From a gamma proteobacterium HTCC2207 (GTDB lineage Bacteria > Pseudomonadota > Gammaproteobacteria > Pseudomonadales > Porticoccaceae), in the NCBI GenBank assembly GCA_000153445.1, contig CH672397.1, positions 478,930-542,929 on the forward strand: DNA of 64,000 nucleotides. The letters run 5' to 3'. Within the stretch, counting starts at the first letter, position 1; the number at the start of each line of letters is the position of its first letter. The notes under the pieces are model-generated. The model saw nothing but the letters and a program-made list of their open reading frames with translations. It was not told where the DNA came from and did no database searches. The position numbers and the translations under genes are program-made. Shown here piece after piece: positions 27,479-47,384 of this stretch.

Positions 27479-28114
27479 CTAACCTTGCTCTACACGGCAA
27501 CCAAACTCTGCACCCGCATCCAAAAGCCACTGGGCCACATAGTCCGCAAAACTGCGCCTAATCACTAGATCATAGGAACCGTCAGGTCTATTGCTTACGA
27601 CCGCCGACGCTTTGGCAAAAGTGGTTTGCACTACCCGTCCTGCAGTAGGTTCTGCGCTGTCCCAAGCCTCAAAATCATAGACGCTGGATTTTTTAAGCAG
27701 AGTCGCAGCTGCGCTGCCGCGCATGTTGATCGAGGTCTGACCACCACTGACGTCAACTATCGATATATGGCCTTGCAGGGCCTTACGCATTGTTGCTTCG
27801 ATAACGGCTGCATCACCGCCAATCTCTACGATCAGCCATTCGCTGGGACCGAGCCAATAGATACTCGTATTGCCATTCCGGCTATAGGTTCCAGCAACTA
27901 AGGGTAGCGTTAGATTTAGCACTTTAGCCACAGCCAAGCAAAACTCGCTGTCTGCAGCATCGCCGCGCAGATTTAAATGGGCACTGAAAGGTGCTTCTTT
28001 AATCACTAAACCGCAGTCTGTTTGATCACTGAATAACGACCCCGGAACCGCGCTTTTATTAAACGCCCCGTGAAAATAATACAGCACTGATTCCTGCACA
28101 ATAGAGTTAGACAT
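27479..28114 (-). CDS. soxG: Sarcosine oxidase gamma subunit
   Basis: 211 residues, small subunit of heterotetrameric sarcosine oxidase. The ATG at 28114 overlaps the soxA stop by 8 bp and has GGGAG eight bases upstream. Longer frames inside soxA (to 28267) have no family support. The C-terminal part (LLKKSSVYDFEAW...VVQTTFAKASAVV) resembles the GcvT-like fold of SoxG proteins. Last gene of soxBDAG. Confidence 0.93.
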   Translation of the reverse strand: MSNSIVQESVLYYFHGAFNKSAVPGSLFSDQTDCGLVIKEAPFSAHLNLRGDAADSEFCLAVAKVLNLTLPLVAGTYSRNGNTSIYWLGPSEWLIVEIGGDAAVIEATMRKALQGHISIVDVSGGQTSINMRGSAAATLLKKSSVYDFEAWDSAEPTAGRVVQTTFAKASAVVSNRPDGSYDLVIRRSFADYVAQWLLDAGAEFGCRVEQG

Positions 28115-31109
28115 GCTGGCGCTCTCCCTTGGGATCATAAAAAACTGAGCTGACAATTTCTGCGGCGATACTGCGTCCATCAGCCAAGGGGCAATAGACC
28201 ACCTGCCCCAACCTGCTGTGCCCGCCCTTAACCACTGCCAGTGCAATAGAATGGCCCAAGCTGGCACTGTAATAGCTCGAGGTTACATGACCCTGCATCG
28301 ACATAGGTATTTTTTGCTTGGCATCGAAAACAACCTGGGCGCCTTCAGGCAAAACATCCGAGCCTTTGAGCGTTTTTAGTCCCACTAGCTGCTTGCGATT
28401 TTCCCGCACTGTGTCGCTGCGCTGCAGCGATCGCTTACCGATAAAGCTAAAGGCTTTGTTCTTACCCACTACCCAATCCATATTCATATCCGCTGGCGTC
28501 ATGGAGCCATCTGTATCCTGGCCAACAATAATAAAGCCCTTTTCAGCGCGCAAAACATGCATGGTCTCGGTGCCGTAGGGCGTGATATTGAATTCTTCCC
28601 CGGCGGCGATTAATGCTTCCCAAATATGACGACCATAATGGGCTGGAACATTCACTTCGTAGGACAGCTCACCGGTAAAGCTAATGCGGAATATTCTCGC
28701 CTTGACGCCAGCCACGGTACCATCGCGCCAATCCATAAAACCAAAGGCCTCATTGGATAGTTCAATGTCGTTACAGACCTTGGCAATCACCTTGCGTGCA
28801 TTGGGTCCTGTCACAGTGGCAGTGGTCCAGTGATCGGTCACCGAGGTGAAGTAAACCTGTAGCTCTGGCCACTCAGTTTGCTGCCACAACTCCAACCAGG
28901 CTAATACCCCAGCGGCACCGCCAGTGGTGGTAAACATTAGGTAGTGGTTGTCAGCCAAACAGGCGCAGACACCATCGTCGAAAATCATGCCATCTTCTTT
29001 AAGCATCACGCCGTACCGGCATTTTCCGGGCGCTAGTTTTAGGTATGAATTGGTATACATGCGGGTGATAAACTCTGCCGCATCTGGCCCTTGGATATCA
29101 ATTTTACCCAAGGTGCTGGCATCCAAAATACCGACACTATTGCGCACCGCCAACCCTTCACGATTAACCGCTTTTTGCAGTGACTCGCCGGACTGGGGGA
29201 AATACCAGGGGCGTTTCCACTGACCCACATCTTCAAATTCTGCGCCCTGCTGCTGATGCCAGCGATGCATTGCGGTGTAGCGTTCAGGATCAAATAAATG
29301 ATTCACATCACGACCAGCGATGGCGCCAAAGGTGGTCGGCGTGTAGGAGGGTCGGAATATAGTGGTGCCGGTTTCAGCAATACTTTGATCCAGCGCATTG
29401 GCCAGTATCGCCATGCCATTAATATTGCCCAGCTTACCCTGATCAGTGCCAAAACCCAGGGCCGTATAACGTTTAACATGCTCGACGGATTCGAAACCTT
29501 CGCGTACCGCCAACTCAATACCACTGGCACTGACATCTAATTGAAAATCGACAAACTGGCTTGGGGCACGACTGGTGCTTTGGGTATGAGGAACCAAAAA
29601 CAATGCTTGCTGTGGCTGCTCTGAATACTCTTCAACGCTAAACCCAGGAAACTGCAAACCTCCGTCACCCCGACCGCTAAGCTTGGCCGCCTCGGCACCG
29701 GCACTGGCACCCTCAGCTAAACATCCGGCAAGATCAAAGGTACCTCTGCAGGCTCCGGCGGAGCGCTCTTGCTGTTTCGACGCTCCTGGCCGAAAACCAA
29801 CAATGTTTGGGTCCCATACCGGTTTGGCTCCTGTGTGAGAGCTTAAATGAATCGCCGGACTCCAGCCCCCTGAACAGGCTATAAGATCAGAGTCTAAATA
29901 CCGGACGGCACCGACTACCTGGGTACCAGATTCATTAATCGGCGCGACTAGCGCAGCCTTAACGCGTTTTTTACCCCTGGCTTCAATAAGCCCATGGCCC
30001 ACCAGAACCTCAATACCCAAAGCCTTTACCGCATCAACTATTTCGCCGCTTGGGTTAGTACGGCTATCCACCACTGCAACCACTTGGCGACCTGTCTGGT
30101 GCCAGTCCAGTGCAGTCTGATAGGCATTGTCATTAGTGGTAAATACCACCAGCTTATTGCCAGGAGCAACGCCATAGCGATTGACATAGGTCGAGACTGA
30201 TGAGGCCAGCATCACCCCGGGTATATCATTGTGCGCAAATACCAAGGGCCGTTCAAAAGCCCCGGTGGCCAACACCACCTGAGCTGCTCGGACTCTGTGA
30301 ATACGCTGACGTGTGCCGCTGGGAGCGCTGAGAGCAAGGTGGTCTGTGCGACGCTCCAGAATCGTTAAGAAGTTATGGTCGTAGTAACCAAAAACCGTGC
30401 TGCGCGGCAATAACTGGACGTTCTTATAGGCCGCAAGCTCAGCCACTAAACTGGCAATCCAATCGGTTGCTATCCTGCCATCAATGGTCTGTTTTGAGGC
30501 CAATAAACTGCCACCAAATTCCGATTGCTCATCGGCAATAATCACTCTGGCACCGGTGCGCGCCGCTTCACGCGCGGCAACTAATCCCGCCGGCCCCGCA
30601 CCGACCACTAACACATCACAATGTTGATTAAGTTTGTCGTAGCTATCGGGATCCGCCTCTACTGGGGTGGCACCCAAGCCAGCAGCCTTGCGAATAAAAT
30701 GCTCGTAAGTCATCCACAATTTTTTCGGATACATAAAGGTTTTGTAGTAAAACCCCGGCGGCATTAAGCGACCAAAGGCCCCGATTATACCCATTACATC
30801 AAAATCGACGCTGGGCCAGCCGTTCACACTGGACGCTTCAAGCCCCTGATAGAGTTCGACCTGAGTCGCTTTCAGGTTGGGAATAGTGGCAGCACCGGCG
30901 CCCAGTTGAATAATGGCGTTGGGCTCTTCTGCGCCATGCCCGAATATGCCCCGAGGACGTGCATATTTAAAGCTACGACCCACAACGTCAACACCATTGG
31001 CCAATAGTGCCGAGGCAAGAGTGTCGCCGACAATGCCCTGATAGGCTTTTCCATTAAAGGTAAAATCAAGCGTAGCGCCAGTATGCGACTCTAACCGATT
31101 GCGGCTCAT
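28107..31109 (-). CDS. soxA: Sarcosine oxidase alpha subunit
   Basis: 1000 residues, usual for the family. N-terminal Fer2-like fold without cluster cysteines (GRSFKYARPRGIFG at about 45-58), dinucleotide-binding domain with VVGAGPAGLVAAR at 168-180 for NAD, and a C-terminal GcvT-like folate domain (about 610-990) that captures formaldehyde as methylene-THF. Oxidises sarcosine to glycine together with SoxB, D and G. The soxD stop overlaps its ATG (ATGA). Confidence 0.97.
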   Translation of the reverse strand: MSRNRLESHTGATLDFTFNGKAYQGIVGDTLASALLANGVDVVGRSFKYARPRGIFGHGAEEPNAIIQLGAGAATIPNLKATQVELYQGLEASSVNGWPSVDFDVMGIIGAFGRLMPPGFYYKTFMYPKKLWMTYEHFIRKAAGLGATPVEADPDSYDKLNQHCDVLVVGAGPAGLVAAREAARTGARVIIADEQSEFGGSLLASKQTIDGRIATDWIASLVAELAAYKNVQLLPRSTVFGYYDHNFLTILERRTDHLALSAPSGTRQRIHRVRAAQVVLATGAFERPLVFAHNDIPGVMLASSVSTYVNRYGVAPGNKLVVFTTNDNAYQTALDWHQTGRQVVAVVDSRTNPSGEIVDAVKALGIEVLVGHGLIEARGKKRVKAALVAPINESGTQVVGAVRYLDSDLIACSGGWSPAIHLSSHTGAKPVWDPNIVGFRPGASKQQERSAGACRGTFDLAGCLAEGASAGAEAAKLSGRGDGGLQFPGFSVEEYSEQPQQALFLVPHTQSTSRAPSQFVDFQLDVSASGIELAVREGFESVEHVKRYTALGFGTDQGKLGNINGMAILANALDQSIAETGTTIFRPSYTPTTFGAIAGRDVNHLFDPERYTAMHRWHQQQGAEFEDVGQWKRPWYFPQSGESLQKAVNREGLAVRNSVGILDASTLGKIDIQGPDAAEFITRMYTNSYLKLAPGKCRYGVMLKEDGMIFDDGVCACLADNHYLMFTTTGGAAGVLAWLELWQQTEWPELQVYFTSVTDHWTTATVTGPNARKVIAKVCNDIELSNEAFGFMDWRDGTVAGVKARIFRISFTGELSYEVNVPAHYGRHIWEALIAAGEEFNITPYGTETMHVLRAEKGFIIVGQDTDGSMTPADMNMDWVVGKNKAFSFIGKRSLQRSDTVRENRKQLVGLKTLKGSDVLPEGAQVVFDAKQKIPMSMQGHVTSSYYSASLGHSIALAVVKGGHSRLGQVVYCPLADGRSIAAEIVSSVFYDPKGERQHV

Positions 31110-31396
31110 GCGCTAGCTCCAGTAATAGTCGGCTGGGTGCCGGTTTTATAGGTTTCCAAAATCTCGTAGGTGACTGTATTGCGCGTCGCATTAAAATAGC
31201 GACGGCAACCCACAGCGTGGTACCACATCTCATGATGGATACCGCGGCTGTTAGTGCGGAAAAACAGGTAGTCTCCCCATTCCTCATCGCTCAGGGCTTC
31301 AGGTTCCAACGGGCGCACAATATGGGCTTCGCCGCCGTAGCTAAACTCTTCCTCTTCGCGATGTTCGCGACAGTGGGGGCAATGGATTAGTAACAT
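31106..31396 (-). CDS. soxD: Sarcosine oxidase delta subunit
   Basis: 96-residue zinc-binding subunit. The ligands known from TSOX structures are all present: C6, C9, H60 and C64. ATG at 31396; it ends inside the start of soxA. Confidence 0.97.
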   Translation of the reverse strand: MLLIHCPHCREHREEEEFSYGGEAHIVRPLEPEALSDEEWGDYLFFRTNSRGIHHEMWYHAVGCRRYFNATRNTVTYEILETYKTGTQPTITGASA

Positions 31397-31424
31397 ACTT
31401 TTCTCATAATATTAGCAATCGAAG

Positions 31425-32675
31425 TTAGTGAGCCACACCAGCAGCGCCGTGTTCATCAATCAGCGCGCCACTATTAAAGCGGTCAAGATTAAAGGCCGCA
31501 GCCAGTGGATGTGGACGATCATTGGCCACGGTGTCGGCGAAGACATAACCGGAACCCGGCGTCGCCTTAAAGCCGCCAGTGCCCCAACCGCAGTTAAAAT
31601 ACAATCCTTGGACAGAGGTTTTACTGATAATTGGACAGGCATCTGGGCAGGTATCAACCACCCCACCCCACTGACGATTCATGCGCACCCGACTAAAGGC
31701 CGGGAACAGTTCGCAGATAGCTTGAATAGTATGTTCCACCACATGAAAGGAACCACGCTGGCCATAGCCGTTATAGCTATCTACCCCTGCGCCAATAACA
31801 AGGTCACCTTTATCTGACTGGCTGATATAACCGTGCACCGCATTGGACATTACCACTGTGTCTAAACAGGGTTTTACCGGCTCGGAAACCAGCGCCTGCA
31901 AAGGTCGTGACTCAACCGGTAATCTCAGACCTGCCATGGCTGCAACCACACCAGAATTACCCGCAGTCACACAGGCCACTTTCCGCGCACCGATAAAGCC
32001 ATTGCTCGTTTCTACACCCACCACAGCACCGTCTTTGCGACGAATCCCTGTGACTTCAGTCTGCTGAATCAGATCCACACCCAGTGCGTCGGCACCCCGG
32101 GCATAGCCCCAAGCAACAGCATCGTGACGAGCAGTGCCGCCCCGAGGCTGCCATGAGGCACCCAAAATCGGGTAGCGACTGTCGCGAGAAATATTAATTA
32201 GCGGCGCAATCTCTTTAATGCGCTGGGGACTCACCACTTCGCCATCTATACCATTTAGACGGTTGGCATTGACCCGCCGTTCTATATCGCGCATATCCTG
32301 TAGGTTATGACCCAGATTAAGCACGCCACGCTGGCTAAACATCACATTGTAGTTAAGCTCTTGGCTAAGGCCTTCCCACAATTTAAGCGACAGATCGTAG
32401 AGCTGTGCCGCTTCATCCCAGAGATAGTTAGAGCGAATAATCGTTGTATTTCGCGCCGTGTTACCGCCGCCCAAATAGCCTTTTTCGATCACCGCGATAT
32501 TAGTAATACCATGGACTTTGGCCAAATAATACGCCGTCGCTAAACCGTGGCCGCCACCGCCGACAACGATCACATCATATTCTTTTTTCGGGGTTGGGCT
32601 ACGCCAGACTTTTTGCCAATTTTCATGGTAGCTAAGGGCATTTTTTAATAGGCTGAAGGCGGAATATTTTTTCAT
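31425..32675 (-). CDS. soxB: Sarcosine oxidase beta subunit
   Basis: 416 residues from the ATG at 32675, the usual SoxB length; an upstream in-frame extension to 32738 is not part of the family. FAD-binding [14 protein letters not shown] is at 37-50. H184 in TARHD lies in the region where the family links FMN covalently. Carries the sarcosine-oxidising flavin. First gene of soxBDAG. It is divergent from an AraC-type regulator, with an operator-like inverted repeat in the shared intergenic region. The ribosome site before the ATG is weak. Confidence 0.96.
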
Positions 32676-32799
32676 TTCTATGGGTCTGCACAGTAGCGAT
32701 AAACGACTCCTATTGGAGCAAGATGAGGCTGCAAGCAACTAGAAGAAAACTGACAATCTCAGGACTCAAAAGCGACAAATGGCTGAAAAAACCCAATTA

Positions 32800-32848: not shown

Positions 32849-32899
32849 CCAAGCCTACACTGCACTGAACAAAAATAACTCGAATCTAGGGCGCTCAGC

Positions 32900-33880
32900 A
32901 TGCCTAAAAAATCCTCTCTTTATAAAATATCGCCGAGTTTATCCGTCGGTTTTGTGTTGATGCCAAGCTTTACGCTGCTACCCTTTTCTGCGTTTATTGA
33001 CGCCCTGCGCCTGGCGGCAGATGAAGGTGATCAGAGCCAACAAATAAACTGTCGCTGGACCCTGATGGGGCCCAACCTCGACGCTATTTCTTCGAGCTCT
33101 GGAGTCCAGATAAAGCCCTGGGAAAGCTATAGGAATCCAGTGGAATTCGACTACATAGTTGTCGTAGGTGGCCTGCTACAAAAGACCTTGCATGGCAGTC
33201 AACATGTGATCGACTACCTGCAGCAAGCCAACCGAGCTCATGTGCCCATTATTGGTCTCTGCACCGGGTCCTTTGCAATGATCCGCGCCGGGCTGATGCA
33301 TCAACGTCGCTGCTGTGTCAGCTGGTTTCACTACAAGGATCTGGCAGAGCACTATCACGACGTTATTCCGGTTGCCGAACAACTCTTTGTCGACGACGGC
33401 GATCGGATTACCTGTGCTGGCGGCGCTGTGGCTGCGGATCTTGCCGGCTATATTATTGAGCGCCATCTGGGCCAGAGCTGGGCGCGCAAAAGTCTGCGTA
33501 TTTTACAGATGGATAGTCCTCGACCGGCCAATGCGCCACAACCGCAACCGGCGTCTGATTATCAGGTGAAAAATAAATCGGTTGCACGGGCGCTGTTGCT
33601 GCTAGAACAAAATCTCAGCCGGCCCCTCTCTACGGATGAAATAGCTGATCGATTGAATATTTCAAAGCGTCAATTAGAGCGTCTATTTATCGCCGAAACC
33701 GGTGATAGTTTGCAAAAGTTTTATCGAAAAATTCGCTTAAATTATGGACTTTGGCTACTGCAAAATACACAGCGCTTAATTACCGATATTGCGCAGGAAA
33801 CAGGCTTTTCAGATACCGCCCATTTCTCCCGCGCTTTTCGCGCGGCCTTTGACAAAAAGCCCACTCAGTGTCGAGAATAA
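32900..33880 (+). CDS. GlxA family transcriptional regulator (DJ-1/GATase1 + AraC HTH)
   Basis: 326 residues. The N-terminal DJ-1/PfpI-like domain (about 12-185) carries the nucleophile-elbow text LCTGSFAMI. The C-terminal AraC double HTH (about 220-320) includes ADRLNISKRQLERLF and the QETGFSDTAHFSRAFRAAF signature. Family relatives (GbdR, CdhR, SouR) control betaine, carnitine and sarcosine catabolism. Divergent from soxBDAG, which it probably regulates; a SouR-like role is a reasonable guess. Confidence 0.88.
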   Translation: MPKKSSLYKISPSLSVGFVLMPSFTLLPFSAFIDALRLAADEGDQSQQINCRWTLMGPNLDAISSSSGVQIKPWESYRNPVEFDYIVVVGGLLQKTLHGSQHVIDYLQQANRAHVPIIGLCTGSFAMIRAGLMHQRRCCVSWFHYKDLAEHYHDVIPVAEQLFVDDGDRITCAGGAVAADLAGYIIERHLGQSWARKSLRILQMDSPRPANAPQPQPASDYQVKNKSVARALLLLEQNLSRPLSTDEIADRLNISKRQLERLFIAETGDSLQKFYRKIRLNYGLWLLQNTQRLITDIAQETGFSDTAHFSRAFRAAFDKKPTQCRE

Positions 33881-33901
33881 TGCAGAGCAGCTGCACAGCC
33901 T

Positions 33902-34930
33902 CTAGCTGCGCATGTGTCGCTCATTGCTCGGCGGTATGCCATAGAGATCACTGTAGCAGCGACTGAAATGCGGCGCCGTGGAAAAGCCACAGCTTATTGC
34001 AACATCGATTACCGGAATCGAGGTTTGCAGTAGTAATAAGCGCGCTCTGGAGAGGCGTAATTCGAGATAATATCTAGACGGGGCACAGTGCAAATAGCGA
34101 TTAAATAAACGCTCTAACTGGCGCCTTGAAATGCCTACATAATTGGCCACTTCATCCAGTGTTAAAGGTTCTTCAGTATTGCTTTCCATCAGGGTTACCG
34201 CGTCCACTAAACGCGGCTGACTGGCACCAATCAAATATTGTAGCGGTGCGCGCTGAGCGTCTTTTTCTGTACGCACGCGGTCACAGCTAAACTGCTCAGA
34301 TATCTGCTGCACAAGCTGATGCCCGTGGATACTGGCAATCAAACTCAGCATCAGGTCAATGGAACTGATACCCCCTGAACAGGTATAGCGATCGCGGTCT
34401 ATAGCAAACAGTTTGGAGGAAAGCTGTAGCTTGGGAAATTCCTCACGCATACTGGCAAGATTTTCCCAGTGAATAGTGCAGCGATAGCCATCTAATAACC
34501 CGGCGGTGGCTAGGGCATAACTTCCGGTACACAACCCGCCCAGAGGAATCTTTTTCTTGGCAAAACCGCGCAGTGCATCAGTGAGCAACTTGGTGCAATA
34601 CTGCCTGATATGGTAGCCGCCACAGACTAGTAATATTTTCACGTCAGTGGCACTTTTAAGCGCACCGTAAATTTGTATCTCCAGCCCACAGCTTGACGTC
34701 ACAGGCTCTCCGTCTAGACTGTAGATCGACCAACGATACAGTTCGCGGCCACTGAGACGGTTTGCCATACGCAGGATACCTATGGCGTTAGAGAAGGTAC
34801 TTAGAGTGTACTCAGGCATCAACAGAAACCCTATATGCAGGGTGACCACAGGTTCGATTTCAGCCTGATCTTGAGCCTCTTGAGGCAGCAAAGGGTGCAG
34901 AGAGTATGGAGCAATATTATCGTCGGACAT
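33902..34930 (-). CDS. GbdR-like GlxA/AraC family regulator
   Basis: 342 residues from the ATG at 34930; the in-frame GTG at 34957 is less likely. DJ-1-like domain with GLCTGSYALATAGLL and AraC HTH (VGISRRQLERLF, then CGFSTAPHFSRCY). The text ANRLSGRELYRWS is close to that of GbdR, the activator of glycine betaine and dimethylglycine catabolism in Pseudomonas. It lies last in the minus-strand corrinoid cluster, 158 bp after the corrinoid activator gene, and is convergent with the other regulator. Naming it gbdR would go beyond the evidence. Confidence 0.85.
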   Translation of the reverse strand: MSDDNIAPYSLHPLLPQEAQDQAEIEPVVTLHIGFLLMPEYTLSTFSNAIGILRMANRLSGRELYRWSIYSLDGEPVTSSCGLEIQIYGALKSATDVKILLVCGGYHIRQYCTKLLTDALRGFAKKKIPLGGLCTGSYALATAGLLDGYRCTIHWENLASMREEFPKLQLSSKLFAIDRDRYTCSGGISSIDLMLSLIASIHGHQLVQQISEQFSCDRVRTEKDAQRAPLQYLIGASQPRLVDAVTLMESNTEEPLTLDEVANYVGISRRQLERLFNRYLHCAPSRYYLELRLSRARLLLLQTSIPVIDVAISCGFSTAPHFSRCYSDLYGIPPSNERHMRS

Positions 34931-35088
34931 TTTTAAACGCCTTCTTATAAAAACCACTTCTATTGGTGGCTTTTTCTAAGTATAGATCAACAAACTATTT
35001 TTTAAGAAACACTTTTAGTCAATGACTATTGCCCGCTCACAAAAAAACAATAATCCCAACACAGTCGATGAAACATCCAATCAAAAAC

Positions 35089-37116
35089 TTAGCGCCGGCG
35101 ACGCTTTCTGCCACCACTACTCTCAACAAGCTGTTTTATTGGCGGCCGATTCACCACGGAAAATAAATGATCAAAAGGATCAGTCTTGTTGGGAAAGGCC
35201 ATGGCATCGACAAAATAATCCTGAAATTTTGGCTCCAGAGCGGTTTCAATTTTTTCAATATTTTTAACCAAGCTTTCAATCACATTTCGAGACGGACTAT
35301 TCAACAGTGCAATACGCGCGCCAGTGCCGGCGGCATTGCCCGCCGACGAAACCTCGCCCAACACGCAGTCGGGAATCAACCCCAGCACCATGGCGTGTTG
35401 CACATTAATATGACTGCCAAAGGCCCCAGCTAAACGAATGCGCTCTACCCTGTCAGTGCCCATATGATCCAGTAGTAATTTCACACCGGCATAGAGCGCG
35501 GCCTTGGCCAGCTGAATTTGGCGAATATCATTTTGTGTCACTACAATCTGCGCCTCGTCATTGGCGGGGGTATGCAGAACATAACTCCAGGTGCGGTCAT
35601 TTTGAATAATTCTGGCACTGCGACTGGCAAGATCGCCATCGACTATTCCATCCAGCGTTACTATGCTGGCCAAATACATCTCGGCAACCACTTCAATAAT
35701 GCCTGAGCCACAGATTCCGGTGACACCATGGCTCTCTATGGCCTCGCTGAAACCCGCTTCATCAGACCAGAGCTCAGATCCAATCACTTTAAAGCGCGGT
35801 TCTAGGGTTTCAGGGTTTATTCGCACCCGTTCAATGGCGCCGGTGGCAGCCCGTTGACCACAGCTAATTTGGGCGCCCTCAAAGGCTGGGCCCGTGGGAC
35901 TGGAGCAGGCCAGTAACCGCTGGCGATTACCCAGCACAATTTCAGCATTGGTGCCCACATCCACCAACAGGGTCATCTGATCCTGTTCCTGTGGTTCTTC
36001 CGAAAGAATCATACCGGCGGTATCTGCACCCACATGACCGGCAATACAGGGCAATATATAAATCCGTCCGCCGGGATTAATCTTTAGATCTAATTCGGTG
36101 GCGGGTATTTCGACCGCTGCATCAGTCGTCAGTGCAAAGGGGGCACCGCCCAATTCCACTGGGCTAATGCCGAGTAAAATATGATGCATGATAGGATTAG
36201 CCACCAGGGAAATTTCTAAGATATCCTCGACGCTGGCCTCTATTTCCACAGCGACTTCCGCAAATAGGCTATTCAGCGCCTCACGGATAACCAGCGTTAT
36301 TTCCTCTGCTCCCTCCGGGTGCATCATCACGTAGGAGACGCGGCTCATTAAATCTTCACCAAAGCGAATCTGTGGGTTCATTAGGCTGGCGCTGGCCAGT
36401 ACCGAACCGGTAGAGAGATCACAGAGGTGGGCGGCAATAGTAGTTGAACCCACATCCACTGCGACACCATAGGCCCTGTCGTTTAAACCGGGCCACAGGG
36501 CGACGATTTTTTCCTGCTTATGCACAGCAACAGTGATGCTGCGCTTGCCCTCAGCCAAAACTGGCTGCAGGATTTTTAATAGGCCGCTGTCACAGCTTAG
36601 GTTATCCAGACCCCACTCTTCTGCAAGCGCATCGGTCAAGCGCTGCAGGTCTCCTTTGGGCACGTGCATATCGGCTTCGGCAACCTGCACATAGTAGAGC
36701 CGGGTAGCTGGATCCAGACTGATATCTCGGTACTCGGCATCTTTGCGCACTATCTGACGATGCACCTGGCTCTCGGCGGGCACATCTATCACCACATCAT
36801 CGAGTAGTAGTGTATGGCAACTTAAACGACGGCCATTGGCCAGTGGTGTTTTGCGCTCGCCATATTTGATTTCGGTGGCGCAAATAGCGGACAGATGGCT
36901 GCTATCGGAGGCGATCTGGTGTTTGGGAAAAGAGCCTTCAGCACAGATAATCTGACAGCGACCGCAGAGTCCACGACCGCCGCAGACGGAATCAATATCC
37001 ACACCCAGCACACGCGCAGCGTGTAATAGAGGTGTATTGACCGGAAAACTGCCACGGCGACCAGAGGGTGTGAAGACGATTTTGACCATCTTGTCACTGC
37101 TATGCGGAGTACCCAT
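35089..37116 (-). CDS. Corrinoid reductive activator: [2Fe-2S] ferredoxin fused to ASKHA domain (DUF4445)
   Basis: 675 residues from the ATG at 37116 (a TTG at 37125 or ATG at 37089 are alternatives). N-terminal [2Fe-2S] domain with C45-X5-C51-X2-C54 and a fourth cysteine at C100. A linker follows, then an actin/Hsp70-like (ASKHA) domain with phosphate motifs VDVGSTTIAAHL and LVDVGTNAEI. This is the RACo architecture, which re-reduces inactive Co(II) corrinoid proteins with ATP in acetogens. The protein ends in a basic tail (GGRKRRRR). It is placed 16 bp after the methyl-THF methyltransferase, supporting a repair role for the corrinoid protein encoded at 40462. Confidence 0.9.
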   Translation of the reverse strand: MGTPHSSDKMVKIVFTPSGRRGSFPVNTPLLHAARVLGVDIDSVCGGRGLCGRCQIICAEGSFPKHQIASDSSHLSAICATEIKYGERKTPLANGRRLSCHTLLLDDVVIDVPAESQVHRQIVRKDAEYRDISLDPATRLYYVQVAEADMHVPKGDLQRLTDALAEEWGLDNLSCDSGLLKILQPVLAEGKRSITVAVHKQEKIVALWPGLNDRAYGVAVDVGSTTIAAHLCDLSTGSVLASASLMNPQIRFGEDLMSRVSYVMMHPEGAEEITLVIREALNSLFAEVAVEIEASVEDILEISLVANPIMHHILLGISPVELGGAPFALTTDAAVEIPATELDLKINPGGRIYILPCIAGHVGADTAGMILSEEPQEQDQMTLLVDVGTNAEIVLGNRQRLLACSSPTGPAFEGAQISCGQRAATGAIERVRINPETLEPRFKVIGSELWSDEAGFSEAIESHGVTGICGSGIIEVVAEMYLASIVTLDGIVDGDLASRSARIIQNDRTWSYVLHTPANDEAQIVVTQNDIRQIQLAKAALYAGVKLLLDHMGTDRVERIRLAGAFGSHINVQHAMVLGLIPDCVLGEVSSAGNAAGTGARIALLNSPSRNVIESLVKNIEKIETALEPKFQDYFVDAMAFPNKTDPFDHLFSVVNRPPIKQLVESSGGRKRRRR

Positions 37117-37132
37117 GCTATCCAACGCCTAT

Positions 37133-38026: not shown

Positions 38027-38041
38027 GCTTTTCTCCAAAAA

Positions 38042-39025
38042 TTAACGGCTCGGATGCCAGGGGATTCGATCTCCCAACAGCTTAGTTTTTTCTACGATTT
38101 CAGCGATTCGATGTTCCTGACGATAGGCCATAATATGCACCCCGCTGACCCCTTCAATATCGCGAACTTCATTGATCATATCGATACAGATATTGACCCC
38201 TTCCTGCTTTTGATCCTCGGCACCTGCAAGGCGTTTAATAATCCCATCGGGAATATGCACACCGGCGACATTGTTGCGAATCCACTCAGCAGATTTGGCC
38301 GAGGCCAAAGGACCCACACCGGGCAAAATAAAAACCTTTTTATCCAATCCGAGATCCCGAACCTTGGCCATATAGGTTTTAAGCATGTCGATATCAAAGC
38401 AGTACTGGGTCTGCACAAACTGCGCACCAGCAGCGACCTTTTTCGCCAGACGCAGAGGTCGATAATCAAATGGTGGGGCAAAGGGATTGGCCGCTGCGCC
38501 CAAAAATACTCGCGGTGGCGAAGTGATCTTACGACCACTGAGAAACTCGCCATCATCGCGCATGCCACGAAGCATTTGCAGGCTGGTCATGCAGTCCATA
38601 TCGAATACTGGCTTGGCTTCTGGATGGTCGCCAGACTGCACGCCATCGCCGGTTAAGCAGAGAATATTCGACACGCCCATGGCTGAGGCGCCAAGCACAT
38701 CACCCTGCATGGCAATGCGGTTTTTATCACGGCAAGAGATCTGCATAATCATTGAGTAGCCACGGCGGGTCAGCAGCGCGCACATGCCGACACTGGACAT
38801 ATGACAATTGGCACCGGAGCCGTCGGTAGCATTAATGGCATCCACATAGCCATCAAACTGCGCCGCGCGGTCGAATACTTCCTGAGGATCAGCTGAATCT
38901 GGCGGCGCTATTTCCGCGGTTACGGCAAAATGACCGGCGCGCAATATCCGCTCAAAACGACCGGGAGAATCATGGCCCGGCAGTATTGGCAGGTTCTCTC
39001 CTGCTAGAGGTTCGTCGTCAAACAT
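38042..39025 (-). CDS. Methylenetetrahydrofolate reductase (MetF family)
   Basis: 327 residues from the ATG at 39025, which overlaps the stop of the preceding gene as ATGA. Flavin-dependent TIM barrel with FAVTAEIAPP, FVQTQYCFDID and GVHIMAYRQEH. Context suggests it runs in the oxidative direction, methyl-THF to methylene-THF, for dissimilation of methyl groups rather than for methionine synthesis. An in-frame ATG at 39067 is a less likely start. Confidence 0.9.
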   Translation of the reverse strand: MFDDEPLAGENLPILPGHDSPGRFERILRAGHFAVTAEIAPPDSADPQEVFDRAAQFDGYVDAINATDGSGANCHMSSVGMCALLTRRGYSMIMQISCRDKNRIAMQGDVLGASAMGVSNILCLTGDGVQSGDHPEAKPVFDMDCMTSLQMLRGMRDDGEFLSGRKITSPPRVFLGAAANPFAPPFDYRPLRLAKKVAAGAQFVQTQYCFDIDMLKTYMAKVRDLGLDKKVFILPGVGPLASAKSAEWIRNNVAGVHIPDGIIKRLAGAEDQKQEGVNICIDMINEVRDIEGVSGVHIMAYRQEHRIAEIVEKTKLLGDRIPWHPSR

Positions 39026-39483
39026 CAGGATGTCACGCCTAATTTTTTGCGCACAGCGCGAAGCCATGCACTGGTGCCTTTTAATCGTACATCCACGGGC
39101 GCCTGAATCACCTGAATCGTCGACTCCAGATCACCCACCCGCTTGCTGCCCTCCCAGGAGGTCACCCAGACGCAGACCATAGTTGCATCGACCTCGCAGT
39201 GACCATTGCTGCGCACGCCGCCACAGGGGCCATTGCGGAGGGTTTTAGGGCAGTTCATCGGACAGGCCATACCGGTTTCACCGAGAGTACACTGACCACA
39301 GGATTGAGAGTCGAACAGAAAGCCTTTGACCATTTGTTCAATAGCGGCAAAAGCGCGGTCTAGGCGCTGATAGCCGAGACGCTTAAAGATCGGATGCAGA
39401 GCCACCAAAAGCCTTTCTAGGGCCTGATAGGCGCTGCGTAACCAGCGGGCGTTGCGAGCCGACCAGTAGCGAACCCTTTTCAA
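39025..39483 (-). CDS. MetV-like MTHFR C-terminal domain protein (zinc/cysteine-rich)
   Basis: 152 residues. The core has seven cysteines (C62, C65, C74, C78, C87, C96, C104) with the text CPMNCPKTLRNGPCGG, as in the MTHFR_C family. In acetogens the homologous MetV forms a complex with MetF. It starts with TTG at 39483, overlapping the preceding stop (TTGA), which fits translational coupling. The N-terminal 55 residues are basic and helical. Adjacent MetF and MetV-like genes suggest a two-subunit methylene-THF reductase. Confidence 0.82.
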   Translation of the reverse strand: MKRVRYWSARNARWLRSAYQALERLLVALHPIFKRLGYQRLDRAFAAIEQMVKGFLFDSQSCGQCTLGETGMACPMNCPKTLRNGPCGGVRSNGHCEVDATMVCVWVTSWEGSKRVGDLESTIQVIQAPVDVRLKGTSAWLRAVRKKLGVTS

Positions 39484-39788
39484 GCGCTCACTATCCTAAG
39501 GCCTTTGCTGGCCACTAGGGCGGCAATATCAGCATTGGAATAATCACTCTCTATGGCACTGGCAAATTGCTCAGCGAGCTCCTGAGGACTGCCCTCGCCT
39601 TCAATTGAACTGGTAACACGGCGCCAGTCTTCCAAATACTCGTCGCTGCCTCCTTTGCCAGCGCGCATGGCAGCGCGATCTATAGCGACCTGAAAACGGT
39701 GGCTCAGCAGCGCCTTGCCCCGAACTCGGCCACTTTTGACCAGAATTTGAGCTGGGATATCACGCCAAAACACTTCAATTTTTTGCAT
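39480..39788 (-). CDS. Small 'virulence factor' family protein of the corrinoid cluster
   Basis: 102 residues; start IEVFWRDIPAQILVKSGR. It matches what I know of the 'virulence_fact' Pfam family, a misleading name for a short protein that recurs in alphaproteobacterial clusters of this type. Biochemical function unknown. ATG at 39788; it ends in a TGA that overlaps the MetV-like start. Its strict position between the DUF1638 and MetV genes suggests a part in methyl transfer or flavin/corrinoid handling. Confidence 0.75.
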   Translation of the reverse strand: MQKIEVFWRDIPAQILVKSGRVRGKALLSHRFQVAIDRAAMRAGKGGSDEYLEDWRRVTSSIEGEGSPQELAEQFASAIESDYSNADIAALVASKGLRIVSA

Positions 39789-39808
39789 CAAGTCGCTCTC
39801 TATTCGCT

Positions 39809-40462
39809 TTAGATAATCTGCAAAATTTGCTCTTTAAGACTCTTTCCCAAATCGCCATAACCACTGTGCTTATGGCTAAATTCTAAGCCTAAAAATTCCG
39901 CCGCTCGCTCTGCTCTAACAACCAAATCTGCATCTTGGCGCTGAGACAGATAGGTCACCAATCTGTAGTTGGCAAAGTACTGATCCCGCAACTCAGGATA
40001 CAGATCCAGCTTTAACCCCTTAATCACCAGTCGGTCAAAGTGCTCAACCAAAAAATCGGTCAGGTAAAAAGTACCCAATTCCCGCTCTGCCATCTGCGTA
40101 AAATCCTGTTCACCGGCATAGAAGGAATAACAGTGAGCGCCGGGCAGACGCTCTATAGATTCGCCGGCCTCGGCTATCACTCGGTCAATCTCACCACCGG
40201 TACCACAGTCTCCATAGGCAACAAAAATATGCTGATATTGACTGCGATATTGCTCGATTTTTTCCCGCAGCTTTTTCGGAATTAATTTTGGTCTATTGTG
40301 TAACTCGGCATCCAGACACTGCAGATCCATCTGGCTCCAGCCATTGAGCTTTTGCAGCCAGACGATCTCACGGGCCAGGGCTCCGCAGGCAATTACCAGT
40401 AATCTTGAACCCTCGGGGCTTTTTATTGGCTCAAGGCTGTCCATTGGCTCGAGGCCGTTCAC
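39809..40462 (-). CDS. DUF1638 protein
   Basis: 217 residues from a GTG at 40462 that overlaps the corrinoid-protein stop (TAGTG); an ATG at 40444 is the alternative, and the first 18 residues are a repetitive LEPMDSLEP stretch of doubtful value. Candidate metal- or corrinoid-contact residues are C26, C49, C86 (YGDCGTGG), H110 and C111. DUF1638 genes are known near methylamine and betaine methyltransferase genes, but no function has been shown to my knowledge. Confidence 0.8.
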   Translation of the reverse strand: MNGLEPMDSLEPIKSPEGSRLLVIACGALAREIVWLQKLNGWSQMDLQCLDAELHNRPKLIPKKLREKIEQYRSQYQHIFVAYGDCGTGGEIDRVIAEAGESIERLPGAHCYSFYAGEQDFTQMAERELGTFYLTDFLVEHFDRLVIKGLKLDLYPELRDQYFANYRLVTYLSQRQDADLVVRAERAAEFLGLEFSHKHSGYGDLGKSLKEQILQII

Positions 40463-41160
40463 TAAGCAGCCTCTAGGGCTCTACGTTCCTGCACCAAACG
40501 AATCGCTGTGGTCGCTGCATCCGCGGCATCGCGGCAATAGGCATCAGCGCCAACCGCGGTGCCAAATTCTTCATTCAGCGGTGCACCGCCAACCATGACT
40601 ATATATTTGTCACGCAGGCCCTGGTCTTTAAGCGCGTCGATCACCACTTTCATATAGGGCATGGTCGTAGTGAGCAGAGCGGACATACCCAAGATGTCGG
40701 GCTTATGGCGCTCTAGAGCGGCTATATATTCCTCTACGCTGTTATTAATACCCATATCGTGAACTTCGAAACCGGCACCTTCCATCATCATGGCGACCAG
40801 GTTTTTGCCTATATCGTGGATATCACCTTTCACTGTGCCAATCACCATAGTGCCCACTGGCTTAGCGCCGGTCTCGGCCAATAGCGGCTTGAGAATCGCC
40901 ATGCCACCCTTCATGGAATTAGCCGCGAGCAACACCTCGGGAACAAATAAAATACCATCGCGAAAATCAATCCCGACCACGGTCATACCGTCGACTAGCG
41001 CTTCACCCAACACGCGCTCTGGCGTCCAGCCTCGATCCAGGAGAATCTGTGTGCCCTCTTCAATCTCTTCTTTTAACCCATCGTAGAGATCGTCATGCAT
41101 TTGCAAAACCAGATCTGCATCGGATAATTCAGCCAGTACAATATCGTCTTCTTCAGACAT
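40462..41160 (-). CDS. Corrinoid (B12-binding) methyl-carrier protein, MtbC/MttC/MtgC type
   Basis: 232 residues. A helical cap domain (about 10-95) is followed by a Rossmann B12-binding domain with the signature DIHDIG (D113-x-H115-x2-G118); H115 is the expected lower cobalt ligand. A C-terminal extension of Ala/Arg residues follows VGADAYCRDA. ATG at 41160 with GAGGAA seven bases upstream. It carries the methyl group between the MttB-like enzyme just upstream and the folate methyltransferase. Confidence 0.95.
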   Translation of the reverse strand: MSEEDDIVLAELSDADLVLQMHDDLYDGLKEEIEEGTQILLDRGWTPERVLGEALVDGMTVVGIDFRDGILFVPEVLLAANSMKGGMAILKPLLAETGAKPVGTMVIGTVKGDIHDIGKNLVAMMMEGAGFEVHDMGINNSVEEYIAALERHKPDILGMSALLTTTMPYMKVVIDALKDQGLRDKYIVMVGGAPLNEEFGTAVGADAYCRDAADAATTAIRLVQERRALEAA

Positions 41161-41202
41161 CCTGTTTATTCCTCAAAAATCGTGCTTTTATATTAGTAAC
41201 GC

Positions 41203-42756: not shown

Positions 42757-42803
42757 AATTATTTTTCCGTTGAAGACTGTTGCTCTGTCTTTTTTTTAGG
42801 ATC

Positions 42804-42900: not shown

Positions 42901-45414
42901 CTAACTTCGCAAACAGCTATTTTCGCCATCAAAGGGCGACTCTTCGATCACTGTTACCGGATAGCGCTGCCCCAGCATTTCAATTTCTAACGCTGTCCCT
43001 ACAGCGCCATAAGCAGTCTTAACGAGACCCAGCGCCAGAGACTTATTGGTCCTGAAACCAAAACCTCCAGAGGTAGCTCGACCAACTAATACTCCGTCTT
43101 TATAAAGGCCCTCAGAACCTCGGGCATCGGCGTCATTGACGCCATGAACTTCCAAGGTCGCAAAACAATTATCAAAGCCACGCTCTTGCCAGTCAGTCAG
43201 CGCTTGTTTGCCGACAAAGTCACAGTCCTTATCCAGCTTTACAAAACGCTCTAAACCCGACTCCAAGGCGGAGTATTCAATCGACATTTCCCGAGGTATC
43301 AAACGGTAGGATTTTTCGATCCGCATACTGTCCATGGCGCGAATACCAAAAGGCTTGATATTAAATTCGGCACCGGCCTTCATCAGTTCATCAAAGATAT
43401 AGTTTTGCATCTCGATTGGATGGTGCAGCTCCCAACCCAACTCGCCGACAAAATTAACGCGCAGCGCCTCGGCCTGGGCATAGCCAACATTAATCGACTT
43501 GCCGGTAAGCCATTTAAAGTTATCGTTAGACATATCCGTGTCAGTAAGCTTTTGCAGCAACTGCCGAGACTTGGGCCCAGCTACCACCAAAACACCCATC
43601 TGGGTGGTAATTTTCTGTAAATTAACCGAGCCATCTCGCGGTGCCAGCTTAGTCAGATAATCCCAGTCGTGACGCTCTTGAGCGCCGGCAAAAACCAGGT
43701 AATAGCTGTTTTTTGCGCGTTTGTAGACAGTGAATTCGGCTCGCACACCGCCGTTTTTAGATAGCATATGGCAGAGACCAATGCGCCCTATGGCCTTGGG
43801 AATCGTGTTCGCGACAATGCTGTTCAGCCAAGCTTCTGAGCCGCGCCCGGTGACCGTACATTTGGAGAATGCCGACATATCCAGCACGCCTACATGTTCA
43901 TTTACATGGCGGCATTCCTGACCGACAAAATCAAAGTAGTTGGAGCGACGGAAGGAGTTCTTTTCAACGATGCGGCCGTCGGCCAACGCCGCTGAATGGT
44001 TTTTATTCCACAGGGTATCTGACTTGTCCAAGTCTTCATCGGACAAAGAATAACCGGGAGGCGCAAACCAGTTGGGTCGCTCCCAGCCATAGACAGAGCC
44101 AAACACTGCGCCCAGGGCTTTCATACGATCGTAGCAAGGGGTAGTTTTTAACGGCCGCGCAGCACCGCGTTCTTCATCTGGGTAGTGGTTTTTAAACACA
44201 TGATCATAGGCTTCTTCGTTTTTGCTGCGCAGATAGCCACGACTGGCGTAGGGTCCGAAACGACGTGGATCAACACCCATCATATCCACCGTTGGCTCAC
44301 CGTCTACAATCCATTCCGCCAACTGCCAACCGGCACCGCCAGCAGCGGTAATACCAAAGCTATGGCCTTCATTGAGCCACAAATTGTTTAAACCCCAGGC
44401 CGGACCAACGATGGGATTACCATCCGGGGTATAGGCAATAGCGCCGTTATAGACCGTTTTGATTCCCACATCGGCAAAACCGGGAACCCGTGTCATACAG
44501 GCTTCAATATGGGGCATCAAACGATCTAAATCGCCATTAAAAAGTTCATATTCGGAATGCTCACTGGGACCGTCCACATAGCAGCAGGGTGCAGTTTCTT
44601 CATAGGGACCGAGAATAAATCCACCGGCCTCCTCACGCAGATAATAGCCAGCGTCAGAATCACGCAGCACAGCCTGCTCAGGAAGTCCCTGGGCTTTGCG
44701 CGCTAAAATATCAGGATGTGGGTCGGTAACTATATACTGGTGCTCTACAGGAATAACCGGAATATCCAGCCCCACCATCTCGCCAGTCTTGCGGGCAAAG
44801 TTGCCGGTGCAGCAGACAACATGCTCACAGTGGATATCACCCTTATCGGTTTTAACAATCCAACTCTCATCGGACTGCTGCTCCAGATCGAGCACTGCAG
44901 TATTGCGATAGATGGTTGCACCCCGAGAGCGCGCACCTTTGGCCAGAGCCATAGTTAAGTCTGCGGCTTGAATATAGCCATCATCTGGATGCTGGATCGC
45001 ACCAATCACGCCATCTAGGTTAGCCAATGGCCAGGCTTCTTTAACCTGTTCTGGGGTTAAAAAATTAACCTCCACGCCAACGGTCTGGGCCACGCCGGAA
45101 TAGTACCGATATTCATCCATACGGTCTTGATTAGAGGCTAAGCGAATATTTGAGACCACGGAAAAGCCCACATCTTGCCCAGTCTCTTTTTCCAGCTCAT
45201 GATAAAAATTCACTGAGTACTGGTGCAACTTCCCCACCGAGTAACTCATATTAAAGAGTGGCAATAGACCCGCAGCGTGCCAGGTGGAACCGGATGTCAG
45301 TTCCTTGCGCTCCACCAACACCACATCGGTCCAGCCTTTTTTAGCCAGGTGATAAAGGGTGCTGACCCCAACCACGCCACCGCCAACTACCACTACTTTT
45401 GCACTCGTTTTCAT
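42901..45414 (-). CDS. FAD-dependent dimethylglycine/sarcosine dehydrogenase with GcvT domain
   Basis: 837 residues. FAD-binding VVVVGGGVVGVSTLYHLA at 7-24; H46 in SGSTWHAAGL matches the histidine that binds FAD covalently in dimethylglycine dehydrogenase. Amine-oxidase domain to about 380, then FAO and GcvT-like folate domains (about 430-830). Demethylates a secondary or tertiary amine and hands the carbon to THF. With sarcosine oxidase encoded nearby, dimethylglycine is the likely substrate. Probably the first gene of the minus-strand cluster; divergent from fhs. Confidence 0.9.
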   Translation of the reverse strand: MKTSAKVVVVGGGVVGVSTLYHLAKKGWTDVVLVERKELTSGSTWHAAGLLPLFNMSYSVGKLHQYSVNFYHELEKETGQDVGFSVVSNIRLASNQDRMDEYRYYSGVAQTVGVEVNFLTPEQVKEAWPLANLDGVIGAIQHPDDGYIQAADLTMALAKGARSRGATIYRNTAVLDLEQQSDESWIVKTDKGDIHCEHVVCCTGNFARKTGEMVGLDIPVIPVEHQYIVTDPHPDILARKAQGLPEQAVLRDSDAGYYLREEAGGFILGPYEETAPCCYVDGPSEHSEYELFNGDLDRLMPHIEACMTRVPGFADVGIKTVYNGAIAYTPDGNPIVGPAWGLNNLWLNEGHSFGITAAGGAGWQLAEWIVDGEPTVDMMGVDPRRFGPYASRGYLRSKNEEAYDHVFKNHYPDEERGAARPLKTTPCYDRMKALGAVFGSVYGWERPNWFAPPGYSLSDEDLDKSDTLWNKNHSAALADGRIVEKNSFRRSNYFDFVGQECRHVNEHVGVLDMSAFSKCTVTGRGSEAWLNSIVANTIPKAIGRIGLCHMLSKNGGVRAEFTVYKRAKNSYYLVFAGAQERHDWDYLTKLAPRDGSVNLQKITTQMGVLVVAGPKSRQLLQKLTDTDMSNDNFKWLTGKSINVGYAQAEALRVNFVGELGWELHHPIEMQNYIFDELMKAGAEFNIKPFGIRAMDSMRIEKSYRLIPREMSIEYSALESGLERFVKLDKDCDFVGKQALTDWQERGFDNCFATLEVHGVNDADARGSEGLYKDGVLVGRATSGGFGFRTNKSLALGLVKTAYGAVGTALEIEMLGQRYPVTVIEESPFDGENSCLRS

Positions 45415-45716
45415 ACCCGTCTCTTCAAGCCTGTTTTCATTATTTTTAGGTCAGTGTAACCGCCAAAACTAGCCTGCCAACGCGCAAATACGACAGCCAT
45501 ATACCTTCCAACGCCATGACCGCAACAGCCTATATCACTTACCGTAGAGTCGTTTTTAGAACAGCTAGAGCCGGTCTCAGAAAGCCAGTAAGGAATTGGT
45601 TTGTGGAAGATGTGCGCAGCGTTAACTAAGCTTGTGAGAAGTGGTTTTACCAGGCGGTATAAGCAGGCGGTATTAGCAGGCAGAGTTACTGACATAATTA
45701 TCGGAGTTAGATCCCC
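45415..45716. promoter_or_regulatory. Divergent promoter region of the demethylation operon and fhs
   Basis: 302 bp with no gene. It must contain both divergent promoters, but no clear -35/-10 pair could be assigned. I saw no cobalamin or glycine riboswitch core. Three 13-bp direct repeats stand before fhs and are listed separately. Confidence 0.45.
45651..45689. repeat. Three 13-bp direct repeats upstream of fhs
   Basis: caggcggtataag, caggcggtattag and caggcagagttac follow head to tail, ending 27 bp before the fhs ATG. Either an operator-like iteron or another slippage-born tandem repeat; unlike the other arrays it lies 5' of a gene. Confidence 0.6.
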
Positions 45717-47384
45717 ATGAGTGATATCGAAATAGCACGCAGTGCCACCAGCCAACCAATCGCTGAAATTGCCGCAAAGCTCCACATTCCCGATGCAGCA
45801 TTAATTCCCTACGGCAGAACCAAAGCCAAAATATGTCCGGATCATATTGCCTCGTTAAAAGATAAACCCGACGGCAAGTTGATTTTGGTTACCGCGATTA
45901 CCCCTACCCCTGCAGGCGAAGGTAAGACAACAACCTCCGTTGGCCTCACCGACGGACTCAACCGCATAGGTAAAAATGCACTGGTGTGCCTGCGTGAACC
46001 CAGCCTTGGCCCCTGCTTCGGGATGAAAGGCGGAGCCGCCGGTGGTGGCTATGCACAGGTGGTTCCCATGGAGGATATCAACCTGCACTTTACCGGCGAC
46101 TTTCACGCCATTGGCGCAGCACACAACTTGCTGTCGGCACTAATAGACAACCATATTCACTGGGGTAATAGTCTCGAAATTGATGCCCGACGGATCGTTT
46201 GGAAGCGCGTTGCCGATATGAATGACCGCGCCCTGCGCAGCATTAACTGTGGTTTGGGCGGCCCAGGAAATGGTTTCCCGCGCGAGGATGGCTACGACAT
46301 TACCGTGGCATCAGAGGTCATGGCGATCTTCTGCCTGGCCACGGACTTAGACGACCTCAAAGAGCGACTGAATAAAATTGTGGTTGCCTATACCCGCGAC
46401 CACCGACCCATTCATGCCAGTGAGATTTTGGGAACTGGCGCCATGAGCGTGCTGCTCAAGGATGCCCTTGCACCGAATTTGGTGCAGACTCTAGAGAACA
46501 ATCCCGCGATAATCCACGGCGGTCCGTTTGCCAATATAGCCCATGGTTGCAACTCGGTTATCGCCACCAAAGCGGGCCTTAAGATGGCCGACTATGTCGT
46601 CACCGAAGCAGGCTTTGGTGCCGACCTAGGGGCTGAAAAATTCTTTGATATTAAATGCCGTGCTGCAGGCTTGCATCCGGACGCCGCTGTTATTGTCGCC
46701 ACCACCCGCGCTTTGAAAATGCACGGCGGTGTCAGCAAAGACGATTTAGATAAAGAAGATCTGAGCGCCCTGGAAGAGGGTTGCTGCAATCTGGTTCGTC
46801 ATATTGAAAATGTAAAAGCCTTTGGCGTGCCAGTGGTTGTGGGTATCAATCGCTTCACCTCAGATACCGATGCAGAGATTGCCCTGATCAAGAAGATCGC
46901 CCTGGCTAATGGCGTTAAAGCCATAGACTGCACTCATTGGGCGGATGGTGGTGCTGGCACAGAGGAATTGGCCGAGGAAGTAGTTGCGCTTGTGGACTCT
47001 GGGCACGCTAACTTTGCCCCCTTATACCCAGATGACATGCCAATTTGGGATAAGGTTAAAACGGTCGCCACTAGGCTCTATAGAGCAGATGATATTATTG
47101 CCGATCAGAAAATTCGCGATCAGATTCAAAAGCTGCAGGACAGTGGCTATGGTCACTTCCCCGTCTGTATCGCCAAAACGCAGTACAGTTTTTCAACTGA
47201 CCCGACACTAAAGGGAGCGCCATCTAATCATGTTGTGGCCATTCGTGAGGTGAGGTTATCTGCTGGTGCTGGATTTATAGTAGTGGTTTGCGGAGACATT
47301 ATGACTATGCCGGGGCTACCCAGAGTGCCGGCGGCGAATCATATTGATATCAATGAAAATGGCGAGGTTGTGGGGCTTTTCTGA
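45717..47384 (+). CDS. fhs: Formate--tetrahydrofolate ligase
   Basis: 555 residues, full length. ATP-binding [11 protein letters not shown] at 63-73 and [24 protein letters not shown] are family signatures. Makes formyl-THF from formate, THF and ATP, or the reverse with ATP gain. Next to an operon that floods the cell with methylene-THF, the reverse direction (formate release) is plausible; the needed FolD is not in the window. ATG at 45717 with GGAG ten bases upstream. Confidence 0.97.

Follow-up and report, generated by a model that had tools for sequence, protein, structure and literature searches.

Introduction

Cobalamin-dependent demethylation of glycine betaine (GBT) has been reported in the aerobic bacterium Ruegeria pomeroyi (PMC12478193, PNAS 2025; this and the other papers are cited here from excerpts). 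Here we describe a related gene cluster in the gammaproteobacterium HTCC2207, within a window of 64,000 nucleotides, the whole stretch of DNA that was analysed (assembly GCA_000153445.1, contig CH672397.1, positions 478,930 to 542,929). Mutants of R. pomeroyi in mtgC or mtgD fail to grow on GBT, and both genes are also needed for methionine synthesis. Proteomics and homology also implicate two MtgB-type proteins, which rise in the proteome, along with RamA, a DUF1638 protein and MetF2. The published model couples demethylation to methionine synthesis via MtgE, and MetH is absent from 108 of the 156 genomes that carry MtgBCD. Homologues of mtgC are reported from Alphaproteobacteria, Gammaproteobacteria (SUP05) and Deltaproteobacteria, and genes for the later demethylation steps frequently share their operons.

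Two other systems are close. RamA-like and DUF1638 proteins were linked to B12-dependent methionine synthesis in aerobic Phaeobacter (PMC5764234, 2018), where the authors infer reactivation for the RamA-like protein and, in the excerpts used here, make no specific proposal for DUF1638. Among anaerobes, GBT is demethylated through MtgB, MtgC and MtgA in Desulfitobacterium hafniense, and an MtgB is also known from Methanolobus vulcani (PMC6855144). In Methanolobus the methyl acceptor is coenzyme M. The GbcAB and BHMT routes carry out the same step, from GBT to dimethylglycine (DMG).

SAR92, OM60, Halieaceae, MetV and "virulence" go unmentioned in the main text of PMC12478193, and literature searches on MetV with MetF, methyl-tetrahydrofolate and glycine betaine, on the annotation wording in Alphaproteobacteria, and on SAR92 with trimethylamine methyltransferase, returned no papers. 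A search on SAR92 with glycine betaine did return papers, and the one consulted mentions GBT transporters, but in a different group. The sequence-only reading of the window had called this route little described in an aerobe, which the R. pomeroyi report has put out of date. The biochemical idea of the route was published in 2025, and the SAR92 locus is a new example of it, not new chemistry.

Results

Gene content and layout of the cluster

The locus is very probably a complete aerobic catabolic GBT operon in a SAR92-type gammaproteobacterium. Read along the minus strand between 45414 and 27479, it encodes a DMG dehydrogenase, MtgB, MtgC, a DUF1638 protein, a small PF13769 protein, MetV, MetF, MtgD, a RACo/RamA-like reactivase, a GbdR-like regulator and SoxBDAG; a second GbdR-like regulator and fhs lie on the plus strand (Table 1). 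The genes from mtgB to RACo show operon-like spacing (-43 to +42 bases). The same gene order was found again in named SAR92/Porticoccaceae contigs and in other gammaproteobacterial contigs, so the arrangement is not due to chance. Open reading frames (ORFs) and family matches agree almost exactly with the gene list of the sequence-only reading, from which the two regulators, of AraC/DJ-1 type, were absent. The host genome comprises 2.63 Mb in six contigs and is 98.6% complete. The closest named relatives of its MttB-family protein (89-97% identity) come from contigs labelled Porticoccaceae, SAR92 clade or HTCC2207, a few being labelled Pseudomonadales/Cellvibrionales only, and these labels identify the host as a SAR92-type gammaproteobacterium.

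The cluster shares with R. pomeroyi an MttB-family MtgB (PF06253), a stand-alone MtgC separate from MtgD, a RamA-like reactivase, DUF1638, a MetF paralogue beside mtgD, downstream genes for DMG and sarcosine demethylation, which are co-located in the window, and the absence of gbcAB. It differs in that everything lies in one cluster, a MetV and MetF pair occupies the position of metF2, and GbdR-type regulators are adjacent. It differs further in that MetH is present and MtgE absent, so that no coupling to methionine synthesis is expected; the dual-function MtgBCDE arrangement, with a separate homocysteine-binding MtgE and typically without MetH, was not found in the window genome.

The precedents in R. 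pomeroyi and Desulfitobacterium suggest the first steps of a pathway, and family knowledge suggests the remainder. MtgB would convert GBT and Co(I)-MtgC to DMG and CH3-Co(III)-MtgC, and MtgD would pass the methyl group from CH3-Co(III) to tetrahydrofolate (THF), giving methyl-THF and restoring Co(I). RACo, with DUF1638, would return accidentally formed Co(II) to Co(I) at the expense of ATP. We infer that MetV/MetF runs from methyl-THF to methylene-THF. DMG dehydrogenase and SoxBDAG would then convert the second and third methyl groups to two methylene-THF, leaving glycine. It is plausible that Fhs recovers ATP: working in reverse, it would close the oxidation of C1-THF, with release of formate. 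The GbdR-type regulators would respond to the substrate. The proposal of the sequence-only reading, MttB-type GBT demethylation to methyl-THF followed by DMG and sarcosine oxidation, is supported by gene content and by the genome inventory given below.

Substrate of MtgB

The best solved relatives of the window's MtgB are 4yyc (E 3.6e-227) and the glycine betaine methyltransferase 9yce (E 7.2e-127). Its gene is an open frame of 517 codons with zero in-frame amber stops. The absence of an amber codon, together with a TIGR02369 score of 258 bits against a cut-off of 525, ruled out a pyrrolysine-containing MttB trimethylamine methyltransferase.

For the MtgB proteins of Desulfitobacterium and Methanolobus, docking predicted a common set of GBT contacts, Y94, N199, R309 and H345, and one more aromatic contact, F/Y353 (PMC6855144). 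The corresponding positions were placed on the window's MtgB by inference from the 9yce alignment, with a numbering offset of one, and compared across 81 sequences, the window's plus one per locus (the best MttB) from 80 loci; from the 91 MttB-family frames, two under 350 aa were excluded. The Y, N, R and H contacts are all present in 81 of 81 sequences, and none of the four occurs in the nine paralogues above 350 aa from these loci. Taken with the DMG dehydrogenase, Sox and GbdR-type regulators that the cluster also encodes, the contacts favour, without proving, GBT as the substrate. No information on GBT contacts was found in the excerpts of PMC12155760 or PMC9842639.

Alternatively, the MttB protein could act mainly on another quaternary amine (e.g. 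proline betaine, carnitine, gamma-butyrobetaine or choline), with DMG dehydrogenase and Sox handling separately acquired DMG and sarcosine. MttB-family substrates do vary widely (PMC12478193), one of the five docked contact positions is unlike that of Desulfitobacterium MtgB, and in Halieaceae relatives such as L026-L042 the DMG dehydrogenase beside MttB has at most 38% identity or is missing from the stretch examined. We nevertheless regard this alternative as unlikely, given the invariance of the four contacts, the presence of DMG dehydrogenase and Sox in one cluster flanked by GbdR-type regulators, and a genome with a single MttB and no other GBT demethylase found.

Near some clusters there is a second family of MttB paralogues (L030:3088-4632, L039:2878-4422, L045:15703-17241 and others) that lacks all four contacts and presumably acts on a different substrate.

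Inventory of the host genome

MttB is present in one copy genome-wide. GbcA was ruled out for all four Rieske oxygenases (117, 111, 98 and 87 bits, against an NF058607 cut-off of 670), and a separate BHMT was ruled out by a single PF02574 match, which lies in MetH. At the thresholds used, the absence of GbcAB and BHMT, previously noted for the window, now holds for the whole genome. A whole-genome search for MetE found none. There are two MetF proteins, the operon copy and a canonical one beside ahcY that scores above its cut-off.

The later corrin-ring methyltransferases of B12 synthesis belong to the TP_methylase family. The genome's three TP_methylases are CysG, a uroporphyrinogen-III methyltransferase and RsmI, with no later corrin-ring methyltransferase among them, so the host probably imports B12. 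Four BCCT transporter matches were found, three of them full length; the best of these three scored 572 on the betaine model (cut-off 650). The divergent ABC transporter at 48066-53270 was ruled out as a GBT importer, being Opp-like by family.

MtgC, DUF1638 and the PF13769 protein

Conservation around mtgB was followed in close relatives only, the counts below referring to the 80 best of at least 565 MttB relatives. Among these 80 loci, 58 had at least 6.5 kb downstream of mtgB and were taken as readable; the remaining 22 were excluded. mtgC and mtgD occur together in 43 of the 58, and these 43 loci also carry PF13769 (41), DUF1638 (38), RACo (38) and MetV (26). PF13769 was never found without mtgD (0 of 58), and it is kept in the Woeseiaceae clusters L045, L046 and L049, where DUF1638 and RACo were not seen in the stretch examined. 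This co-occurrence pattern, an association only, points to the MtgC-MtgD step.

PF13769 rows numbered 51; alignment A1 holds 44 plus the window's sequence, and A2 holds 43 after exclusion of L029, which has an unknown residue. Seventeen positions are invariant in the 45 aligned sequences, including W9, R10, P13, R32, F33, D38 and W56. The AlphaFold2 model is confident (pLDDT 92.4, pTM 0.81). A Foldseek search of the PDB gave no match at E <=0.001 (best E 0.38, TM-score at most 0.32 among the matches listed), and a sequence search of the PDB gave no useful relative. Across 369 genomes of the class, PF13769 matched 23 at E 0.001, of which 22 were above the cut-off. A full-text literature search on PF13769 found no paper. 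We regard the protein as an undescribed lead, a putative accessory that tracks MtgC and MtgD.

For DUF1638, aligned in 44 of 45 rows (A3), the AlphaFold2 model has a pLDDT of 90. A sequence search of the PDB again gave no useful relative, and a fold search gave one match at E 2.1e-4, to a ribose-binding-protein model with a TM-score of 0.30, the others lying above 0.001 with TM-scores of about 0.2-0.4.

Methionine synthesis and comparison across the family

The host MetH has 1254 aa and five domains: S-methyl_trans, pterin-binding, both B12 domains and a reactivation domain. With the genome's only PF02574 match inside this complete protein, MtgE, and with it a dual role in methionine synthesis, was ruled out for the window genome. 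A complete MetH without MtgE implies that MtgC and MtgD serve catabolism, not methionine synthesis, and MtgBCD looks decoupled from the latter. The MtgC, MtgD, RamA-like and DUF1638 families are those of the split methionine synthase of Phaeobacter inhibens (PMC5764234); they serve methionine synthesis there, whereas here they stand with MttB, DMG dehydrogenase and Sox and without MtgE. MtgC and MtgD might still be shared with methionine synthesis, MetH being a backup, since the same families do so in R. pomeroyi (PMC12478193) and Phaeobacter, and some MetH-negative genomes of the SAR92 family combine the same mtg cluster with a separate PF02574 protein. Since MetH is complete, with its own reactivation domain, and the window genome has neither MtgE nor another separate homocysteine methyltransferase, we consider such sharing highly improbable.

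An MttB match was obtained for 49 of the 112 genomes in the window's family (fragments in G376 and G416), and 31 of the 49 have the MetH activation domain. Among the 26 MttB-positive genomes with completeness of at least 90% and contamination of no more than 5%, 22 have MetH, which makes the operon look purely catabolic; MetH is likewise present in 17 of the 20 good genomes whose cluster was also read through to mtgD. Clusters were read in 44 genomes, G376, G383, G400 and G416 being left out for fragmentary or partial MttB. Six ended before the position of the methylene-THF reductase (MTHFR), and G464 has MttB without a cluster, leaving 37 readable relatives and the window.

Two flavours of the operon were seen in this set. 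In the first, MetV and MetF are present, and 17 genomes have MetH and 5 do not; these five are 73-87% complete, and one, G420, has a MetH-like PF02574 frame (324 bits). In the second, a single divergent MTHFR-like protein takes their place, with MetH in 5 genomes and not in 11. Such proteins (L019:13221-14171, L025:13239-14201, L045:9055-9897) score 20-43 bits to PF02219, and Halieaceae clusters such as L026 have zero MTHFR-like ORFs between PF13769 and mtgD.

Separate PF02574 proteins were sought in the window genome and in 39 of the 48 other MttB-positive genomes, nine MetH-positive ones being excluded. Of the genomes tested, 7 of 14 with the second flavour have one of clade A or B, vs. 0 of 19 with the first, window included. 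Fisher tests of flavour gave p 0.008 for MetH absence and p 0.0008 for the separate protein, and, in good genomes only, p 0.018 (3/6 vs. 0/14) and p 0.0004 (5/6 vs. 0/14), values that are too small because related genomes were treated as independent.

Clades A (L107, L108, L109, L110, L111, L113, L114) and B (L112, L122) consist of homocysteine-methyltransferase-like proteins of 291-328 aa, six of the nine from family genomes without detected MetH. They offer a possible alternative route to methionine. Clade C is of a different kind, its two scanned members (G394, G464) exceeding the PRK07534 cut-off; the MtgE of the 2025 paper appears to be of this PRK07534 type, from its described homology to Sinorhizobium meliloti Bmt.

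Two side observations concern these genes. In L116, a PRK07534-type (Bmt/MtgE-like) gene at 3164-4210 (-) stands head to head with an MttB gene at 4483-5958 (+), 67% identical to the window's, and the rest of this 19.5 kb stretch contains no mtgCD cluster. In G425, the MetH N-terminal region (C13:6815-7731) appears split over several fragments, and one frame contains stops, owing to a frameshift or an assembly error.

Annotated features

Coordinates are collected in Table 1. The 262-aa soxG ORF overlaps soxA by 161 bases and its Pfam match starts at residue 101; the true start probably lies inside the ORF.

Table 1. Features of the betaine cluster and the family matches behind each assignment (window coordinates).
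Feature	Position	Strand	Evidence
DMG dehydrogenase (DAO + FAO_M + GcvT)	42901..45414	-	Pfam architecture; best solved relative dimethylglycine dehydrogenase 5l46, E 1.1e-187
MtgB, non-pyrrolysine MttB-family glycine betaine:corrinoid methyltransferase, 517 aa	41203..42756	-	PF06253 749 bits
MtgC, stand-alone corrinoid-binding protein with GDIHDIG	40462..41160	-	PF02310 and PF02607; best NCBIfam match NF047996
DUF1638 protein, putative reactivase partner	39809..40462	-	PF07796 99 bits
PF13769 "Virulence_fact" small protein, 103 aa (small unknown protein of the sequence-only reading)	39480..39791	-	PF13769 66.6 bits
MetV-type subunit (DUF5981)	39025..39483	-	PF12225 89 bits
MetF-type methylene-THF reductase, the genome's second; presumed methyl-THF oxidation	38042..39067	-	PF02219 129 bits
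MtgD, pterin-binding methyl-corrinoid:THF methyltransferase	37133..38038	-	NF005719 361.8 bits (cut-off 259); PF00809
RACo/RamA-like ATP-dependent corrinoid reactivase, N-terminal 2Fe-2S domain	35089..37125	-	PF14574, PF17651, PF17650, PF00111
GbdR-like regulator 1	33902..34957	-	NF052371 GbdR 436 bits, just under cut-off 480
GbdR-like regulator 2, more distant	32900..33880	+	NF052371 180 bits, cut-off 480
SoxB, sarcosine oxidase beta	31425..32738	-	TIGR01373 726.5 bits, cut-off 529
SoxD, sarcosine oxidase delta	31106..31396	-	TIGR01374 124.1 bits, cut-off 116.5
SoxA, sarcosine oxidase alpha with GcvT domain	28107..31109	-	TIGR01372 1473 bits, cut-off 1164
SoxG, sarcosine oxidase gamma	27479..28267	-	PF04268 112.7 bits, residues 101-254; TIGR01375 100 bits, under cut-off 144
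Fhs, formate-THF ligase, divergent neighbour	45717..47384	+	NF010030 913 bits, cut-off 652

Discussion

The reaction logic of the window's cluster is that of the anaerobic Desulfitobacterium and Methanolobus systems, with a homologous MtgB that shares the four predicted contacts (PMC6855144), whereas the window's MtgC falls below the NCBIfam MtgC cut-offs and the THF methyltransferase goes by another name. Beyond the operon itself, we tentatively propose, with more doubt than confidence, that the SAR92 family forms a natural series for the published coupling model and that PF13769 is an undescribed core accessory of MtgC-MtgD methyl transfer. The series may run from genomes with MtgBCD, MetH and MetV/MetF, purely catabolic as here, to sister genomes with a single divergent MTHFR and often no detected MetH. 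In half of the tested sister genomes, the separate homocysteine-methyltransferase-like protein may allow the system to double for methionine. PF13769, with a fold unmatched in the PDB, may be required in the transfer step proper, with no part in reactivating the corrinoid or oxidising methyl-THF.

Several points weigh against the reading of the locus as a GBT operon or against this wider proposal. On the anaerobic-type models, MtgC scores 197 bits for NF047996 (cut-off 370) and 167 for NF047995 (cut-off 310), and both GbdR-like regulators fall below the GbdR equivalog cut-off. The contact residues derive from docking rather than a ligand-bound structure, and the fifth differs: all 81 sequences have glycine at 353 and, four residues upstream, tryptophan at 349. 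For MtgB of the aerobe itself, the sections of PMC12478193 consulted offer proteomics and homology and describe neither an mtgB mutant nor an enzyme assay, and no experiments on a gammaproteobacterial MtgB came to light. Among the 58 readable loci, mtgC is not between mtgB and DUF1638 in L043 (~11.5 kb) and L053 (~6.2 kb), where the clusters are otherwise full; it was likewise not seen in L062, where the cluster reaches the end of the stretch. PF13769 is missing from 2 of the 43 loci with mtgC and mtgD (L084, L087), and it also matches Bacillus subtilis (1 of 14 controls), itself without a PF06253 match, so the domain is not confined to the mtg system. Four of the 26 good MttB-positive genomes (G371, G391, G413, G468) have no MetH activation domain. 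The clade A and B proteins, six of the nine having been scanned, are MmuM-like, below the PRK09485 cut-off and not of the PRK07534 type, which makes a role as methionine-synthesis partner a guess.

GBT is an abundant marine osmolyte (PMC12478193). SAR92-type bacteria are common coastal heterotrophs. A B12-dependent route in a host without a detected corrin-ring methyltransferase ties betaine use to probably imported B12. The arrangement that retains MetH suggests that the published coupling between betaine and methionine is not obligatory, and the family allows a comparative test of when coupling arises, with PF13769 as a concrete, testable missing part.

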